IMG/VR virus record: IMGVR_UViG_3300036791_000808
Coordinates: 1-21,604 of that record
Length of the DNA stretch: 21,604 bases
Strand: one strand, 5' to 3'
From: a virus
The translations under genes were made by a program, and so were the position numbers. Numbering within the stretch: position 1 is the first letter of the stretch; the number at the start of each line of letters is the position of its first letter. Below, in pieces: positions 4,793-10,643 of the stretch. The notes under the pieces were generated by a model. That model had not been told where the DNA came from and made no database searches. It saw only the letters and a program-made list of their open reading frames with translations.

Positions 4793-5107
4793 CTAATCCC
4801 CGCGCGTCCGCCCCCTGCGCGCCTCACGTGAGACCAGTTGGCTGGCTTCCTGCGCCGGGGCGCGGGTGTCGGAGGTCCCCGCCGGATCAAACCCGCGCGG
4901 TGTGATCCGGTCCAGGCCCAGATCGGAGTTACCGTTGAGCAGCGCGCCTTTTGGTCCGACGCCGGGCGCGGTGCCGAGCCGCAAAGGCCCGCCGAGTGAG
5001 CGATCGGACCTCAGAACGAATTCGTTCTTCAGAAAGTATCCGGTCGGGGAGTTGCGGCTGGTCCCGTCCGCCCTGCCTCGTGGCCATTCGCGTTGCTTCT
5101 CGGCCAT
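4793..5107 (-). CDS. Hypothetical basic phage protein
   Basis: A 104-residue protein with 19 Arg and many Gly/Pro residues (MAEKQREWPRGRADG at the start, SREARRGRTRGD at the end). No membrane segment or known domain is visible. The start ATG at 5107 is preceded by GAGAGA seven bases upstream. It overlaps the end of the nuclease gene by 79 bases, and its stop is five bases before the next start, so it is probably read from the same message. The middle (RSDRSLGGPLRLGTAPGVGPKG) looks flexible. Function unknown. Confidence 0.5.
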   Translation of the reverse strand: MAEKQREWPRGRADGTSRNSPTGYFLKNEFVLRSDRSLGGPLRLGTAPGVGPKGALLNGNSDLGLDRITPRGFDPAGTSDTRAPAQEASQLVSREARRGRTRGD

Positions 5108-5499
5108 GTGTTGGTCTCTCTATGCATGATGCCGGCGCTGTCGAGGGCGTTGATCACGTCCTCCAGGCTTTTGCACACATACACCCGAACGCCAACACCC
5201 TGCAATTTCGCGAACATGTCGCGCTGCGCCGCACTGACCGAATTGGCCCCGGCCTTGAGCTCGATGCCGATCACCTTGCGCATCACGTCGAACACGAGAA
5301 TGTCGGGCATGCCCTTTTTGAGCCCCGACGCGTACAGCCGTCCGGCGGTGCCCTTAGTGAGCTTGCCCCAGCCAGCGGGAAACGTGGTGAAGATCGCGGG
5401 CGGCAACAGCACCCAGTCAAGCAATTGTGCGACTGACGCATGTAGCTCGCTCTCCCGCGGTGAATGCGGGAGGTCGTGCGGTCGATGCCGTTTGTTCAA
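5029..5499 (-). CDS. VRR-NUC domain nuclease
   Basis: A 156-residue protein matching the VRR-NUC branch of the PD-(D/E)XK nucleases, which cut DNA with a divalent metal. The visible signature is Glu18 in SERES-type context (PRESELH), Gly-Met-Pro-Asp66 in LKKGMPDILVF, Glu80 and Lys82 in GIELKAG, and Gln92 in SAAQRDMF. The length is normal for stand-alone phage members. The start is probably TTG at 5499: no ATG or GTG lies in the open frame before the domain, and GGAGA sits eight bases upstream. That TTG overlaps the stop of the preceding small frame as TTGA. The protein ends with a Pro/Arg-rich tail that overlaps the next gene. Being among virion genes, it may act in packaging, junction cleavage or host DNA breakdown; the sequence does not decide. 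Confidence 0.8.
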   Translation of the reverse strand: MNKRHRPHDLPHSPRESELHASVAQLLDWVLLPPAIFTTFPAGWGKLTKGTAGRLYASGLKKGMPDILVFDVMRKVIGIELKAGANSVSAAQRDMFAKLQGVGVRVYVCKSLEDVINALDSAGIMHRETNTWPRSNANGHEAGRTGPAATPRPDTF

Positions 5500-5666
5500 C
5501 GCCGCGCTCTCCGTACCGGGCCGGTGCGCGCGCCTGGACGCGGCGAGCGGCCGACCCGTTTGCCGGTTTTGCGGCTGCGGTGCGCATCGCCGGGATACGC
5601 ACCGTCAGACCACGGCATACGGCACACCGGCCCATGACGGCCGGGGGCCGGATCACGTTTGGCCAT
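5496..5666 (-). CDS. Arg-rich small protein (cluster member 5)
   Basis: A 56-codon frame, MAKRDPAPGRHG..., with 13 Arg and 3 Lys, ending RTGPVRRARR. ATG 5666 overlaps the stop of the preceding frame as TAATG and has GGAG six bases upstream. Its stop overlaps the TTG start of the VRR-NUC gene as TTGA. These tidy junctions are the main support. It has one Cys and one Trp, and the basic residues concentrate in the second half. A competing frame on the same strand (GTG 5656 to 5417, 79 residues, with a CAVC motif) also has a GTGA-type junction, so the true reading frame is uncertain. Arg-richness alone can arise by chance in GC-rich DNA. No homologue is known to me. Confidence 0.4.
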   Translation of the reverse strand: MAKRDPAPGRHGPVCRMPWSDGAYPGDAHRSRKTGKRVGRSPRPGARTGPVRRARR

Positions 5667-5815
5667 TACGGACTCCGTCGTCCGCGCCGGCCACGCCCGA
5701 CACCTTGACGGTGACCGCGATGTCTCCGGACGCGGGTCGAGGGGCGGTGCAACCGCCCCAGCTTCCCGGCCGGATCAACACGGCTGCGCGGGCCGAGATT
5801 GACACCTCGTGCCAC
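5666..5815 (-). CDS. Arg-rich small protein (cluster member 4)
   Basis: A 49-residue frame starting at GTG 5815, with 15 Arg, one Lys and only one acidic residue. The second half (STRVRRHRGHRQGVG then RGRRGRRSP) resembles protamine-like nucleic-acid-binding tails. It has the strongest ribosome binding site of the cluster: a perfect AGGAGG at 5821-5826, five bases before the GTG. The same spacing occurs before the gene at 12087. The stop overlaps the next ATG as TAATG. An alternative frame starting at GTG 5805 and ending at 5653 has a more ordinary amino-acid mix (SGDIAVTVKVSGVAG) but lies 15 bases from the AGGAGG. I favour the first frame on spacing, with real doubt. Confidence 0.42.
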   Translation of the reverse strand: MARGVNLGPRSRVDPAGKLGRLHRPSTRVRRHRGHRQGVGRGRRGRRSP

Positions 5816-5824
5816 TAGAGCCTC

Positions 5825-5986
5825 CTAAAGTCGTCTCGTTCTGCGAAGCACTGCCCGTTTGGTGAAGGAGCTAGGCCGCCATTTCCAGCTTGGTGTGCGG
5901 AAGGTGCCTTGACGCTTGGCCGCGCCCTGCAACTGCCGCCGCATCATGTCGGAGAATTTGCTGCCCGCCCCTCTGGTAACGGCCAA
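5825..5986 (-). CDS. Arg/Lys-rich small protein (cluster member 3)
   Basis: A 53-residue frame starting at TTG 5986 (MAVTRGAGSKFSDMMRRQ...) and ending RAVLRRTRRL. It has 11 Arg, 4 Lys and a single acidic residue, plus a PSWKWRPSSF stretch with two Trp. GGAGA lies six bases before the TTG, while the internal ATG at 5947 has no such site. The TTG follows directly after the TAG TGA stop pair of the previous frame and is in the same frame. Arginine is encoded by a mix of AGA, CGA, CGC, CGG and CGT, which suggests selection on the protein rather than base composition alone. Function unknown; nucleic-acid or membrane binding is an inference from charge. Confidence 0.45.
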   Translation of the reverse strand: MAVTRGAGSKFSDMMRRQLQGAAKRQGTFRTPSWKWRPSSFTKRAVLRRTRRL

Positions 5987-5989
5987 TCA

Positions 5990-6073
5990 CTATCTCCGCT
6001 TACGACGCCTTGCACGGGCGGCCTTGCGCGATGCAGGGACCAGCACCATGCGCTTACGTCTACGTCTGGCCAT
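5990..6073 (-). CDS. Arg-rich micropeptide (cluster member 2)
   Basis: A 27-residue frame beginning MARRRRKRMVLVPASRK and ending ARRRKRR: 12 Arg and 3 Lys, no acidic residue. Arg3-6 use alternating AGA and CGT codons, so the arginine run is not a simple DNA repeat. The ATG lies nine bases after the stop of the preceding frame and in the same frame. There is no ribosome binding site between them, so translation would depend on reinitiation. It ends with TAG TGA. Too short for family recognition. Confidence 0.4.
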   Translation of the reverse strand: MARRRRKRMVLVPASRKAARARRRKRR

Positions 6074-6082
6074 TTGGAGGGC

Positions 6083-6145
6083 TTAGCGGCGGACCCGGCG
6101 ACCGCGACGGCGGCGACGGTTTGCCTCTAGGATGTGCTGTTCCAT
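6083..6145 (-). CDS. Arg-rich micropeptide (cluster member 1)
   Basis: A 20-residue frame: a short mixed N-terminus (MEQHILEAN) followed by 11 residues of which nine are Arg. It lies directly downstream of the 542-residue tail gene. GGAG is placed eight bases before the ATG, inside a purine-rich GGGGAGAAGAG stretch, a convincing initiation site. The stop is TAA. The peptide could bind nucleic acid or lipid through its tail, or mainly serve to carry ribosomes into the following frames. It is below the size most gene finders report. Confidence 0.45.
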   Translation of the reverse strand: MEQHILEANRRRRRGRRVRR

Positions 6146-6184: not shown

Positions 6185-7813
6185 TCAAGCACCGAACAGG
6201 GTACGCGCCTCAAAGCCCAAGTGCAATCGCTCGATCGTGAAGTCGGGGGAGATGCTTTCCAAATCGACCGCCCCGGCAATGCCCGCGCCCTCGGTGGCGT
6301 AGGGCTCGAAGGCGTATTTGGCACCCGGCGGCATGGCAAAACCGATGTCCTGACTGCCGCCGGGCACTCCACCGGCATGGGTGACCAGTTTGCCGGTGAA
6401 CGAGACGCCGCCGCCGAACTCGTCATGAAATTCCAGGAACAGGCGTTTCCAGTTCTTGATGGTTAACTGACTCTGGGCGACGCCGCGCAAGTATTTGGTG
6501 GAGAGTTTCTTGATTAATGCCGGGTCCGGCTGCGCAAACAGTTGATACAGGCTGGTGCCGTCAGTGCCGTAGGGCGTGATGATGCTGTCCTGCTCGTAGG
6601 CACCGATATGTGTCAGGTTGAGATTTTGCGAGGCGATTGACCAGAATTCATTCTGGCCGGGGTGCCACATCAACAACAAATTGCGCTTGACGCCCCACGG
6701 ATCAGTGAACATGCCGTTGCACAACAGAATATGGAAGCCGAACATCGTCGCCGGACACATGGTCGGCAGGAATGTTGATGTGTCCAACGTGTTGTAGATG
6801 TTGGTGACCCGCGCGCCGATTTCGCGCGTTTCCGCGCCGCGTACCTCGTAGATGCCGGCCCCGTTGAACATCTGGAAGTAACGGCTGGCGCGGCCGACCG
6901 GACGCGGAAAGCGTTGGCCGATCTGCGGGTCAATGTTTTGATAGTTCATGTTGGTGGTGAACGGGCTCGCTGACGTGCCCTGACCGGCCAGCTGCACGTT
7001 GGCGATCATATCGATGGAACTATCGCCGAACACGTACAGATAGCCCGAGCTCGCGGCGAGATCATTGAATGCGTAGGTCAGCTTGTTGCCGAAATAGCCG
7101 AACGAACCGCCGCCGTCCGTGGTGCTGAAATCCGCGCCGTTGGCGGGCGCGGAAAAGGAAATCACGTCCTTGCCGGTAACAAATAAACGCGACTGGTAGA
7201 CCTCCATGGAATAAATACCGGGCAACCCGACCGGCATGGTGTAGATCGGTGGGCCGGGTGCGGTCTCCTGCTGGTTGGTCAACCAGTCGGGCGCGGTAGA
7301 GCCGGGCGGAAAGAGGGTGGTTCCGTCCCAGGCGTAGAGCCCACCAGAGCTCGTTCCTTGGGGGCTTCCAAACAGGACACCGCCGGTTTGCCCGGCAACG
7401 CTACCGTAGTATTGAGGCCGCCACACCACTGCGCTGGCCCAATACTGCGGATTGATGGGGTTCCAAGCAGTGCCGATATGGACGACGGCCCGCGTGTCGA
7501 GATCGACTTGGTCGATTGTTCCGTCACTGAGGAACATCCAGCCGTAGCGACCGGGAGGCGGGGCGGTAAATTGGGGTGTGGCATCGCCGATAAATCCAAA
7601 GAAGATGCGCAAGATTTGCGTACCGCTGGGTGCGGTATATATCGCAGGCCCGTGCCCCCAACAAGAACGCAAAGCACCGGGGCCAATCGCAAATAGGTTC
7701 TCGTTCCAAAATTCCTCGTCGTCGTCGATCGAGCCGCGCGGTGCTTGCTGATTTAGGCCCTTCCACTGGCCCACCGTGTGGATTTCAAACGGGTTCGCGC
7801 TTTGGATTGCCAT
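6185..7813 (-). CDS. Phage tail protein, nozzle/tail-tube type (probable)
   Basis: A 542-residue protein without signal peptide or membrane segment. It is rich in Gly, Trp, Tyr and beta-type stretches such as RYGWMFLSDGTIDQVDLDT, LYVFGDSSIDMIANVQLAG and FWSIASQNLNLTHIGAYEQ. These repeat the 'value read-out' style of beta-propeller proteins. It directly follows the adaptor gene (three bases between stop and start), the usual place of the podovirus tail nozzle protein, for which T7 gp12 is the functional parallel. The family call rests on order and composition, not on a diagnostic motif. ATG 7813 is the first start after the upstream stop; no strong ribosome binding site is visible, so coupling is likely. 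An Arg-rich cluster follows downstream. Confidence 0.68.
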   Translation of the reverse strand: MAIQSANPFEIHTVGQWKGLNQQAPRGSIDDDEEFWNENLFAIGPGALRSCWGHGPAIYTAPSGTQILRIFFGFIGDATPQFTAPPPGRYGWMFLSDGTIDQVDLDTRAVVHIGTAWNPINPQYWASAVVWRPQYYGSVAGQTGGVLFGSPQGTSSGGLYAWDGTTLFPPGSTAPDWLTNQQETAPGPPIYTMPVGLPGIYSMEVYQSRLFVTGKDVISFSAPANGADFSTTDGGGSFGYFGNKLTYAFNDLAASSGYLYVFGDSSIDMIANVQLAGQGTSASPFTTNMNYQNIDPQIGQRFPRPVGRASRYFQMFNGAGIYEVRGAETREIGARVTNIYNTLDTSTFLPTMCPATMFGFHILLCNGMFTDPWGVKRNLLLMWHPGQNEFWSIASQNLNLTHIGAYEQDSIITPYGTDGTSLYQLFAQPDPALIKKLSTKYLRGVAQSQLTIKNWKRLFLEFHDEFGGGVSFTGKLVTHAGGVPGGSQDIGFAMPPGAKYAFEPYATEGAGIAGAVDLESISPDFTIERLHLGFEARTLFGA

Positions 7814-7816
7814 GTG

Positions 7817-8551
7817 TCATGCTGACCGAACGGTGGCCCCATACACATTTTGCACCATCTGGGGACAGACCACAGCTGCAGCGAATGGCATCTCCGCATT
7901 GAAGGCCACGGCCATGGCCTGGGCGTCCTGCTGGCGTTGTTGTTGGAGCATGGCCAAAACAGCAGCCCACCAAACTACCGCGTCCGTCCACGGATACGGG
8001 ATCAATTCCGGATCGTTATCCGTGAGTAGATTTTCCGGAATACATGTGAGATCGACCTCCAGCGGCAACGACTGCGTCGGAATGGGCGCGAGGTAGAGCG
8101 AACCGATGGGACCCTCGTTGAATTGAGCATACCAGCCGGGTTCGCTAATCGTACCCATGAAAGTCCGGCCATAGATGCGCATCCTCGCCTGAAAGTCAGT
8201 GAACACAAGCCTGCGCCAAACCGGCTTCCAGCTGCCGCCGCGAATGGCCCAGTTGCCTGCCGCGTCCTGTTGCCACTTGCCGCCGATGCCCACGGCGAGC
8301 GAGCGGCAAGACAGAATCGAGCGCACACCCGGCAAGGCTTGTTGGGCGAGCGAATTCCAGGCGGCGAATGGGTAGATTTCCTGGTCAGGAACGGTTTGAG
8401 TGCCCGGAGGAATGACGCGCAGACAGCCGCTTGCTGCGGCTATGCGACGCCGACTGCGATTGATGTAGTTGGTCAGGGTTACGTCTTGAAAGAACGACCC
8501 CTGACTGTCGTTCAGCAGGTTCCTCGTGTCCGACTGATATTGGCTCAACAT
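7817..8551 (-). CDS. Head-to-tail adaptor protein (gp11-like)
   Basis: A 244-residue protein resembling phage adaptor or tail-tubular A proteins, which form the ring between portal and tail. The most telling part is the N-terminus: the helix region with NYINRSRRRIAAASGCLR matches the usual 'yIN.ar..iA..sg..R' pattern. Later come PYPWTDAVVWWAAVLAMLQQQ and a C-terminal helix. Position between capsid and tail genes agrees. ATG 8551 is needed to keep the N-terminal helix, although no clean ribosome binding site precedes it. This start makes the gene overlap the end of the IPT/TIG gene by 167 bases, so translation may depend on ribosomes already reading that gene. Confidence 0.75.
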   Translation of the reverse strand: MLSQYQSDTRNLLNDSQGSFFQDVTLTNYINRSRRRIAAASGCLRVIPPGTQTVPDQEIYPFAAWNSLAQQALPGVRSILSCRSLAVGIGGKWQQDAAGNWAIRGGSWKPVWRRLVFTDFQARMRIYGRTFMGTISEPGWYAQFNEGPIGSLYLAPIPTQSLPLEVDLTCIPENLLTDNDPELIPYPWTDAVVWWAAVLAMLQQQRQQDAQAMAVAFNAEMPFAAAVVCPQMVQNVYGATVRSA

Positions 8552-9245
8552 CGTGCGGCACCAGAATTGACATTCCGTTCAGTGTAATCTGCGCAACGGT
8601 CGCCGTCGATGGCGGCGTAACCACGGTCCAGACACCGCCGCTCAATGATGGATTGGTGGAAATGTTGGAAAAAACAATAGGCACGCCGGCCGGCGGATTG
8701 TTCGGGAAACCGGCATATGCGGTCGTGGTGGTGAATTGCGGCCAGTAGCCGCTCGATGCCGGCGCGGTCGCGCTGCCGGTCTTGAATTGTGGTTGTACCA
8801 CGCCGGCCAGAGACGGCGGGACGGGCGCGGGGCCTATCGCCGGACCCACCAATGGGCCTTTTGCCGGCGGGATAGCTGGGGGCGGAAAGGCGGGTGGGGG
8901 TGGGTTGCCAATGAGCGGTGGCGGGATGATCGGCACGAAAGCGGGAAAGAAGGCGTCCGTTTTGCTCTGCTCGAAGGTGAAGCCGTTGAACATCGTGTTG
9001 TTGCCGCCGGGCGTGACGACCGTGACGTCCACGACCTGATCGGCGGTCACGAGCGGCGTGGCGCAGGTGATGCTGGTATCACTGACGACCACGACGTTGG
9101 TCGCGGCGACCGCGCCAAAGGTGACAGAGGTTGCGCCAGTAAAGCCGTTGCCGCCGATGGTGACTGCGGTGGCTGTGTTCAGCAACCCGTGATTGGGCGT
9201 GATGCTGTTGATGTTGGGTGCGGCTTCCGTTTCGGGTTCGCCCAT
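8385..9245 (-). CDS. IPT/TIG-domain virion protein
   Basis: A 286-residue protein. Residues about 11-92 form an immunoglobulin-like IPT/TIG domain: INSITPNHGLLNTATAVTI, then GNGFTGATSVTFG, then VVDVTVVTPGG and a closing NGFTF. Residues about 105-150 are a proline-rich linker (IIPPPLIGNPPPPAFPPP). Residues 165-230 contain aromatic and Thr-rich sequence (SGYWPQFTTTTAYAG). The last 55 residues (from Asp232) overlap the adaptor gene and turn into Ser/Arg/His-rich sequence, a sign that this tail may be a by-product of overlap. ATG 9245 has GGAG six bases upstream and overlaps the preceding stop as TGATG. IPT/TIG domains in phages are commonly surface decorations that bind host or sugars; that role is inferred. 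Confidence 0.7.
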   Translation of the reverse strand: MGEPETEAAPNINSITPNHGLLNTATAVTIGGNGFTGATSVTFGAVAATNVVVVSDTSITCATPLVTADQVVDVTVVTPGGNNTMFNGFTFEQSKTDAFFPAFVPIIPPPLIGNPPPPAFPPPAIPPAKGPLVGPAIGPAPVPPSLAGVVQPQFKTGSATAPASSGYWPQFTTTTAYAGFPNNPPAGVPIVFSNISTNPSLSGGVWTVVTPPSTATVAQITLNGMSILVPHDVEPISVGHEEPAERQSGVVLSRRNPDQLHQSQSASHSRSKRLSARHSSGHSNRS

Positions 9246-9559: not shown

Positions 9560-9632
9560 GACACCGCGCGCTACAGACGACGGCGGGCGACCTATCCTGG
9601 TTAGGGCGGCGGAGCGGGTCCAAATGTTGCAC
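9384..9632 (-). CDS. Alternative small frame after the capsid gene
   Basis: An 82-residue frame from GTG 9632, overlapping the capsid stop by 32 bases. Its middle is Ala/Leu/Arg-rich and probably helical (RAAITELRAITAGLACAVAAL, split here by no breaks, then ERSGLLADAKKSNALERR). The GGAG before the GTG touches the start codon, which is too close for normal initiation. It overlaps the Pro/Trp-rich frame at 9245-9559, and both may not be genuine. I judge the competing frame slightly better because of its stop-start junction with the IPT/TIG gene. Confidence 0.3.
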   Translation of the reverse strand: MQHLDPLRRPNQDRSPAVVCSARCRAAITELRAITAGLACAVAALRNTRITLERSGLLADAKKSNALERRVPASAHPLAGRE

Positions 9633-10617
9633 CTCCAGTGATGCCTTGGATCAGGATGCCGGTTGACGGTTTCGAGCAAACAAGATTGAGAGCAGTAAGT
9701 GATAGACCGACAGACGCGATCTGTCCTTGGGGTATTGTTGAATACCACCCGGTCCACGCAAAATTTGCGTCTTCGTGGATGACCAACGTGATATATTTGG
9801 AGTTGAATCCGATCGCCGTGCCCTTCGGGCAATTCAAATCAAAGAAGATCGGCGTGTCGCCCAACAACAAACCACGGAACCCGGAATTGACTGGATCGTC
9901 TTTTCCCCACCGACTTGTTGGATCATTGTTGTAGCGCTCAACACTCATGAAGTCCGTCATGAGTGTGGTCCAGTCTTCGATCGACATGACCACGAAGTCG
10001 AGTGCCTCGCCACCGGAATGCTTGGCGGCATTGAGCAGCATTGGAATGAAGGTGGCGCGGGTCAGCACTGCGCCGGCCGTTGCGACTTTAAGGCCGGCCC
10101 AGGTTGGATAGGTCGTGCGCGAAAGTCCGCCGTAGGTCGCGACCGTAGTGCCGTCATCGTAGGCGTCGAGCAGACCAAACATTTGCAGCGCGGCGTTGGC
10201 GGCATTCGAGCTAAACAGCGCGGTGGACAACGTGTTGAGCGCTGAATTCTTGAGGTCGTTGAGCTTCAACATCAAGCGGGAGGCAACGGCGATTGCGTCC
10301 TGTGTAACTAACTGTTCGAGCCCCAGAGAGCTAACCGGAGTTGCCAAAGCGCAGAGGTTAAATTCTGCGTTGACTGTTGCGGCCACGTCAGTGGGCAAGT
10401 TGAACTGACCAGCCGGCCCAATCCAGCTACTGGTGACGTACTGGCCGGTCTGCACCGGCTGTGTGTAGGGCGAGACGCCGCCACTCGCTCTGATTGCATT
10501 GCGCAAAAGTAAAGCCAGGAGTGGGTTCTGGCGGTAAATTAGCACCACAACCATCTGGGCGAACACTCGCCTTACGGTTGCCTCCAATTCGAGGCCGATC
10601 GGGCCGGAAGGGATCAA
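9601..10617 (-). CDS. Major capsid protein
   Basis: A protein of 338 residues counted from TTG 10617. It forms the head shell, with an HK97-type fold expected. Supporting features are the size, the position after scaffold-like and portal genes, and segments such as WTTLMTDFMSVERYNNDP, SGFRGLLLGDTPIFFD and the C-terminal WYSTIPQGQIASVGLSL, which read like capsid P- and A-domain strands. It ends GPAPPP. The start is odd: TTG 10617 has no ribosome binding site in range, while a perfect AGGAGG (10644-10649) lies five bases before an in-frame ATT at 10636-10638. Initiation at ATT would add seven residues (MPILGSG, with ATT read as Met followed by PILGSG). The upstream neighbour is an HNH endonuclease whose stop touches this AGGAGG. 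Confidence 0.82.
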   Translation of the reverse strand: MIPSGPIGLELEATVRRVFAQMVVVLIYRQNPLLALLLRNAIRASGGVSPYTQPVQTGQYVTSSWIGPAGQFNLPTDVAATVNAEFNLCALATPVSSLGLEQLVTQDAIAVASRLMLKLNDLKNSALNTLSTALFSSNAANAALQMFGLLDAYDDGTTVATYGGLSRTTYPTWAGLKVATAGAVLTRATFIPMLLNAAKHSGGEALDFVVMSIEDWTTLMTDFMSVERYNNDPTSRWGKDDPVNSGFRGLLLGDTPIFFDLNCPKGTAIGFNSKYITLVIHEDANFAWTGWYSTIPQGQIASVGLSLTALNLVCSKPSTGILIQGITGGATFGPAPPP

Positions 10618-10643
10618 ACCTGAGCCGAGGATGGGAATGTGAG

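Follow-up and report, generated by a model that had tools for sequence, protein, structure and literature searches.

Arginine-rich mini-genes beside the virion genes of uncultured podovirus-like phages: coding status, conservation, and a possible protamine-like role

The prevailing view is that tailed phages rely on motor force and small ions for DNA compaction and have no basic protein set of their own. Basic DNA-condensing proteins are familiar from eukaryotic dsDNA viruses, baculovirus P6.9 and the adenovirus core proteins among them. The protamine-like P64 of ascoviruses belongs here as well, as a basic protein that serves to condense genomic DNA (PMC6163548). The locus reported here differs from these eukaryotic viral systems in that the latter usually rely on one main protein; moreover, there is no sequence relation. 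A second parallel, along with other small basic packaging proteins, is the J protein of the Microviridae, a short basic peptide (<40 amino acids [aa]) that has its own gene and accompanies the genome into the virion (PMC7096446). However, J belongs to an ssDNA, T=1 virus, whereas the phages discussed here are tailed, package by motor, and encode five to seven different peptides without a sequence match to J. In gene order (portal-scaffold-capsid-Ig-adaptor-tail) and in its adaptor domain, the locus resembles Escherichia phage SU10 (Kuravirus), but the first 30 kb of SU10 contains no cationic mini-genes.

A sequence relation to a known protamine- or J-like protein was found neither for ten mini-proteins searched against Pfam and PHROGs (v4), both without a match, nor for the profiles of three families (F3, F4, and F5) searched against the PDB, where the one row returned, at E 0.31, reflects chance. 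The 50,697 phage records of INPHARED did not contain a match for the mini-proteins either. What the literature searched offered on protamines in phages, or on virion peptides rich in Arg in tailed phages, concerned eukaryotic viruses, the Microviridae, or unrelated topics. An earlier note on this DNA knew of no described system of this form, and our search agrees, although the open-access literature searched is a subset and therefore weak evidence. We know of no function or cassette description in phage small-gene catalogues; some of the frames may already figure, without a name, among the small families of metagenomic small-ORF surveys.

A mini-gene cassette between tail and nuclease genes

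The window, i.e., the whole stretch of DNA analyzed here, is an IMG/VR virus record of 21,604 bases from an uncultured podovirus-like phage and includes a terminase domain. Five mini-genes, all on the minus strand, sit between a tail gene and a VRR-NUC nuclease gene (Table 1). A recount of lengths, Arg residues, and the few acidic residues returned the figures of the earlier note. The same holds for the ribosome-binding sites it had assigned to four of the five frames (GGAG(A) for gene 1, GGAGA for gene 3, AGGAGG for gene 4, and GGAG for gene 5), for the junctions TAATG (genes 4/5) and TTGA (gene 5/nuclease), and for the alternating codons of Arg3 to Arg6 in gene 2 (AGA CGT AGA CGT). Gene 2 is without a ribosome-binding site of its own and starts 9 nucleotides past the gene 1 stop; its translation is probably coupled to that of gene 1. 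Summed over the five mini-proteins, the net charge is +64 in 205 residues; their pI is 12, and GRAVY values of -0.95 to -2.1 mark them as strongly hydrophilic. As in protamines and J, the products are short (20 to 56 aa), Arg/Lys-rich, and strongly positive (+7 to +15), and disorder is indicated for F5, the sole member tried, for which AlphaFold2 gave no fold (pLDDT 61, pTM 0.20).

Relatives of the tail protein align over their full length at 52 to 90% identity. The SU10 portal domain (PF23899) scored 22.6 bits in the window, below the cutoff of 30. A gene for a TIG/Ig-like domain protein (PF01833; positions 8385 to 9245, minus strand) occupies the same position as the Ig-like gene of SU10, which is encoded in that phage but unseen in its capsid map. 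At positions 10620 to 10640 (minus strand), shortly after GAGGAGG, the capsid gene reads ATT in place of the ATG with which MPILGSGL begins in relatives; this reflects either an unusual start codon or an error in the sequence.

Table 1. Positions of mini-genes, neighboring genes, and RNA elements (window coordinates unless a locus is given)
Feature	Position	Strand	Properties
Mini-gene 1, family F1	6083..6145	-	20 aa, 9 Arg; ATG start; MEQHILEANRRRRRGRRVRR; charge +7; acidic residues 2
Mini-gene 2, family F2b	5990..6073	-	27 aa, 12 Arg; ATG start; MARRRRKRMVLVPASRKAARARRRKRR; charge +15; acidic residues 0
Mini-gene 3, family F3	5825..5986	-	53 aa, 11 Arg; TTG start; charge +14; acidic residues 1
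Mini-gene 4, family F4	5666..5815	-	49 aa, 15 Arg; GTG start; charge +15; acidic residues 1
Mini-gene 5, family F5	5496..5666	-	56 aa, 13 Arg; ATG start; charge +13; acidic residues 3
VRR-NUC nuclease	5029..5499	-	PF08774, E 9.8e-8; 3' neighbor of cassette, kept in close relatives
Tail protein	6185..7813	-	542 aa; 5' neighbor of cassette, conserved; nozzle-like by gene order only
Head-tail adaptor, SU10-like	7817..8551	-	PF24175, 35.8 bits (cutoff 27)
Major capsid protein	9601..10617	-	phrog_9953 major head protein, E 1.1e-24; family joins window to wider mini-gene phages
13-aa Lys/Arg genes, MW202753	L136:4758-4799, 4878-4919		Strong ribosome-binding sites
13-aa Lys/Arg genes, MW202825	L137:25752-25793, 25871-25912		Strong ribosome-binding sites
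Pseudoknot sites	L136:4793-4876, L212:6474-6557, L231:1481-1563	+	Found at 14 further loci

Coding status and family conservation

The existence of the five mini-genes is near certain: the frames code for protein and evolve under purifying selection. The earlier note had proposed a dN/dS below 1 in relatives as the check; against the three nearest ones (L085 to L087, with tail proteins 79 to 90% identical to that of the window), the value pooled over the five genes was 0.17, 0.17, and 0.18. By gene, it was 0 for gene 1, 0.12 to 0.13 for gene 2, 0.12 to 0.24 for gene 3, 0.04 to 0.13 for gene 4 (0.04 against L086), and 0.23 to 0.36 for gene 5. Third codon positions took 60 to 68 of the 97 to 110 substitutions (ca. 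60%) that separate the window from these relatives. The gene 1 protein is identical in all three, the 1, 3, and 8 changes relative to the window all being synonymous. Arg is invariant in 57 alignment columns; its codons differ in 30 of these, with a switch between CGN and AGR in 8. Finally, profiles of the families described below gave 240 gene matches in 52 segments, all of them on the coding strand; the reverse strand and shuffled sequence yielded zero.

Conservation of either of two competing frames would have spoken against this interpretation. Frame 5417-5656 is broken by stops in L085 and L086, two of the three relatives. Frame 5653-5805 is broken in L087 only, and its stop is not kept in L085 and L086; since this frame is weakly tested by stops, it is the substitution pattern that decides for gene 4, and the third-position pattern belongs to gene 4, not to its competitor. 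Selection of the five genes for positive charge is thus strongly supported by dN/dS, CGN/AGR switching, and family conservation, and the caution that CGN codons arise in wrong frames of GC-rich DNA could be ruled out as an explanation.

Searches with the capsid protein returned at least 80 relatives and searches with the tail protein 57; all relatives are metagenomic, and the phages of the window clade are uncultured, high-GC, and from soil. Up to 2.6 kb past the tail gene was read in the window and in 51 of the relatives. By profile searches, the short frames there fall into eight families: F1 (30 loci), F2 (38), F2b (16), F3 (44), F4 (42), F5 (43), F6 (23), and F7 (4). Where 1.3 kb or more of sequence was available (45 loci), the mean number of Arg-rich family members is 5.1 (range, 1 to 7), and the net charge per cassette, without F6, is 60 ± 16, although the families vary. 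F2 (RRARRIRARK) resembles F2b, while F3 has the core WRLPxWRPRLxSYRKGRRL in relatives. The F4 pattern, MARGVxLGPRSRVDPAGK...RGHRQGxGRGRRGRR, keeps LGxRS(RVDPAG), and that of F5, APGRxGPVxRMPWSDGAxPxDW...SPRPGxRTGPVRxxRR, keeps GPVxRxPWSDxxxPxDW and SPRPGxRTGPVR. Given these kept motifs in F3, F4, and F5, the mini-proteins are more than poly-Arg.

F4 was present in all 23 records tested, and a scan of IMG/VR found it in 67 contigs, with the tail gene 0.2 to 1.4 kb upstream in every one (67/67), so that the placement among virion genes, as originally described, is both right and conserved. The cassette nevertheless gains and moves members, since L086 (from the same contig as L001) has an additional F2 gene, located after gene 2 and before gene 3, and since L003/L114 carries F6 and an F2b gene after a different nuclease-like gene. 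In L003, this unrelated-looking gene (positions 8354 to 8869, plus strand) replaces VRR-NUC, and Arg-rich mini-genes again follow. Over the full contigs of five relatives, short frames that are strongly cationic and have a ribosome-binding site concentrate here, and elsewhere they are only scattered singles.

Two leads were discarded. The F2-core DNA pattern also occurs in L355, L364, L373, L386, and L360 (GC, 0.66 to 0.71), without the capsid protein or an F2 mini-gene, and these are chance matches in wrong frames. Five contigs from metagenome-assembled genomes (MAGs), with 37 to 44% capsid identity, pointed to unrelated host groups; they are probably co-binned phage contigs, and no host is claimed.

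Lys/Arg genes and a pseudoknot in the wider capsid group

Only two named phage records, MW202753 and MW202825, have this capsid protein (35% identity), and the Arg-rich cassette was not found in these or in the other distant capsid relatives scanned. Distant relatives carry one or two Lys/Arg genes of 10 to 15 residues (MARKARKGRKARK type) with strong ribosome-binding sites; in 28 of the 30 loci found by the capsid alone, these lie 1.35 to 2.2 kb upstream of the capsid gene, between portal and scaffold. Across 386 kb, 36 matches fell on the coding strand and 0 on the other. The 13-aa genes of MW202753 have the portal region on one side and the next structural gene on the other; the public records of both named phages leave such genes out and show other hypothetical proteins across their positions. 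Homology of the 13-aa genes with the window families cannot be shown by sequence, the tie between them being the common capsid family.

The capsid linkage was tested by two pattern scans ignorant of the capsid. MARKxRKGRKxRK occurred at least 123 times, with a ribosome-binding site in 122 of the matches listed; among these listed matches, the capsid gene was found 1.3 to 2.1 kb downstream in all 97 with room for it, the other 26 being near a sequence end. The pattern of the first mini-gene, KR[GSR]RKTRR, had the capsid gene downstream in 56 of 56 testable newly fetched cases among the matches listed (24 more were near a sequence end). Neither scan contained an exception among the matches listed. 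In the wider group, the share of Lys drops with rising GC (Spearman, -0.46; indicative only, as the loci were partly found by a Lys-rich pattern), which suggests that charge, and not a particular residue, is selected.

In several wider relatives, a hairpin (TAATCC...GGATTA) overlaps or follows the stop of the second mini-gene (L136, approximately 4915 to 4940; L137, minus strand, approximately 25735 to 25755), with a TTGACA promoter-like box further downstream.

The two mini-genes of the wider group stand on either side of a conserved H-type pseudoknot, GGGUnUGGCUGnnUUCCC...AAGUGGCC. Covariation is strong: across 34 distinct sequences, standard pairs fill 95.8% of pair cells, and 46 cells change on both sides, against a shuffled mean of 11.7; none of 500 shuffles reached any of the measures, and sliding the pairing partners destroyed the signal. 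A model of the pseudoknot found it in 17 of 29 wider relatives, at one site each, although four of these loci (or kin of theirs) either contributed to the model or are similar to it. A search of eight loci against Rfam gave no match.

Short Arg-rich motifs being classical RNA binders, the mini-proteins might bind RNA, of the phage or of the host, at a late stage of infection, either in antitermination, like lambda N, or to block host translation, and the pseudoknot flanked by two mini-genes offers a possible peptide target. However, the pseudoknot model found nothing in 457 kb of sequence, of which 30 kb is SU10 and the rest the window clade, so that the structured RNA beside the 13-aa genes was not found in the window clade. 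Since, in addition, five to seven distinct peptides exceed the needs of one regulatory site and the genes are positioned among structural genes, we consider an RNA- or ribosome-directed role unlikely.

Possible roles of the mini-proteins

We tentatively favor, without calling it probable, the interpretation that the mini-proteins are small disordered polycations made with the virion, in which we infer their presence, and that they neutralize or organize nucleic acid in the manner of protamines. Such a protamine- or J-like role would account for the charge, the number of peptides, the missing fold of F5, and the neighborhood. We also count in its favor the invariant link to structural genes (67/67, 97/97, and 56/56), the CGN/AGR switching, the family conservation with zero control matches, the stable cassette charge, and the amidase endolysin that a relative encodes far from the cassette. 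As part of the structural gene cluster, the cassette would supply five (up to seven in relatives) probably disordered mini-proteins with a charge of approximately +60 per set. Most likely, the peptides would be made alongside the structural proteins and then enter or line the head; their basic stretches would bind nucleic acid, while the nonbasic motifs LGxRSRVDPAG, PWSDxxxPxDW, and WRLPxWRPRL may dock them on virion or assembly proteins. Inside the head, packaged DNA would be neutralized and ordered as by protamines or the Microviridae J protein.

Several points count against a simple protamine role. The cryo-EM-solved structure of SU10, a distantly similar phage, shows DNA packed at ordinary density (PMC9509320), and SU10 manages without such a protein. 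Tailed phages package with a motor and, in charge surveys, form a group distinct from the viruses whose packaging depends on basic capsid domains (PMC7096446). Furthermore, the conserved Trp/Pro motifs suggest more than bulk neutralization. A protamine-like or an assembly role fits best, and the choice among protamine-like, cement, and host-targeting functions is beyond what sequence can decide.

If the mini-proteins served the assembly of capsid or tail, as cement, a scaffold clamp, or a tail plug, their basic residues would touch acidic protein surfaces, and not DNA. The docking-like motifs in F3, F4, and F5 and the fixed site after the tail gene, or beside portal and scaffold, would suit this role, but the tails, dense in Arg and poor in hydrophobic residues, look suited to nucleic acid, and cement proteins are normally folded; on balance, it does not seem likely.

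Disruptins, the short cationic outer-membrane peptides encoded among phage lysis genes, are likewise short and cationic, and the strong positive charge and a plausible late expression of the mini-proteins might point to a similar lysis function or to host-killing toxins. Such a role is very unlikely given their strong hydrophilicity and the separate amidase endolysin of a relative genome; in contrast to a membrane-active peptide in a lysis cassette, the mini-proteins are flanked by tail and nuclease genes in the window and lie beside virion genes in all loci read. Even less probable are leader peptides without a product function, in which translation of Arg/Lys codons merely regulates the next gene: while some genes are tiny (10 to 20 codons) and those of the wider group have hairpins and a pseudoknot around them, the window genes have 20 to 56 codons, low dN/dS, kept nonbasic motifs, and a head-to-tail spacing that leaves little room for a downstream terminator or alternative structure, and the interchange of Lys and Arg with GC is incompatible with tRNA-specific attenuation.

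Returning to the polycation interpretation, its broadest form is possible but rather doubtful: widespread tailed dsDNA phages might package their genome with a polycationic mini-protein set of their own, a phage counterpart of protamines, ranging from 13-residue genes by the capsid gene around a new pseudoknot to a cassette of five to seven genes after the tail gene in high-GC soil phages. The present analysis shows a class of genes of 10 to 60 residues that standard annotation misses, as in MW202753 and MW202825, and a conserved multigene polycation set linked to one capsid family would open protein-assisted DNA condensation in the head of a tailed phage to testing.
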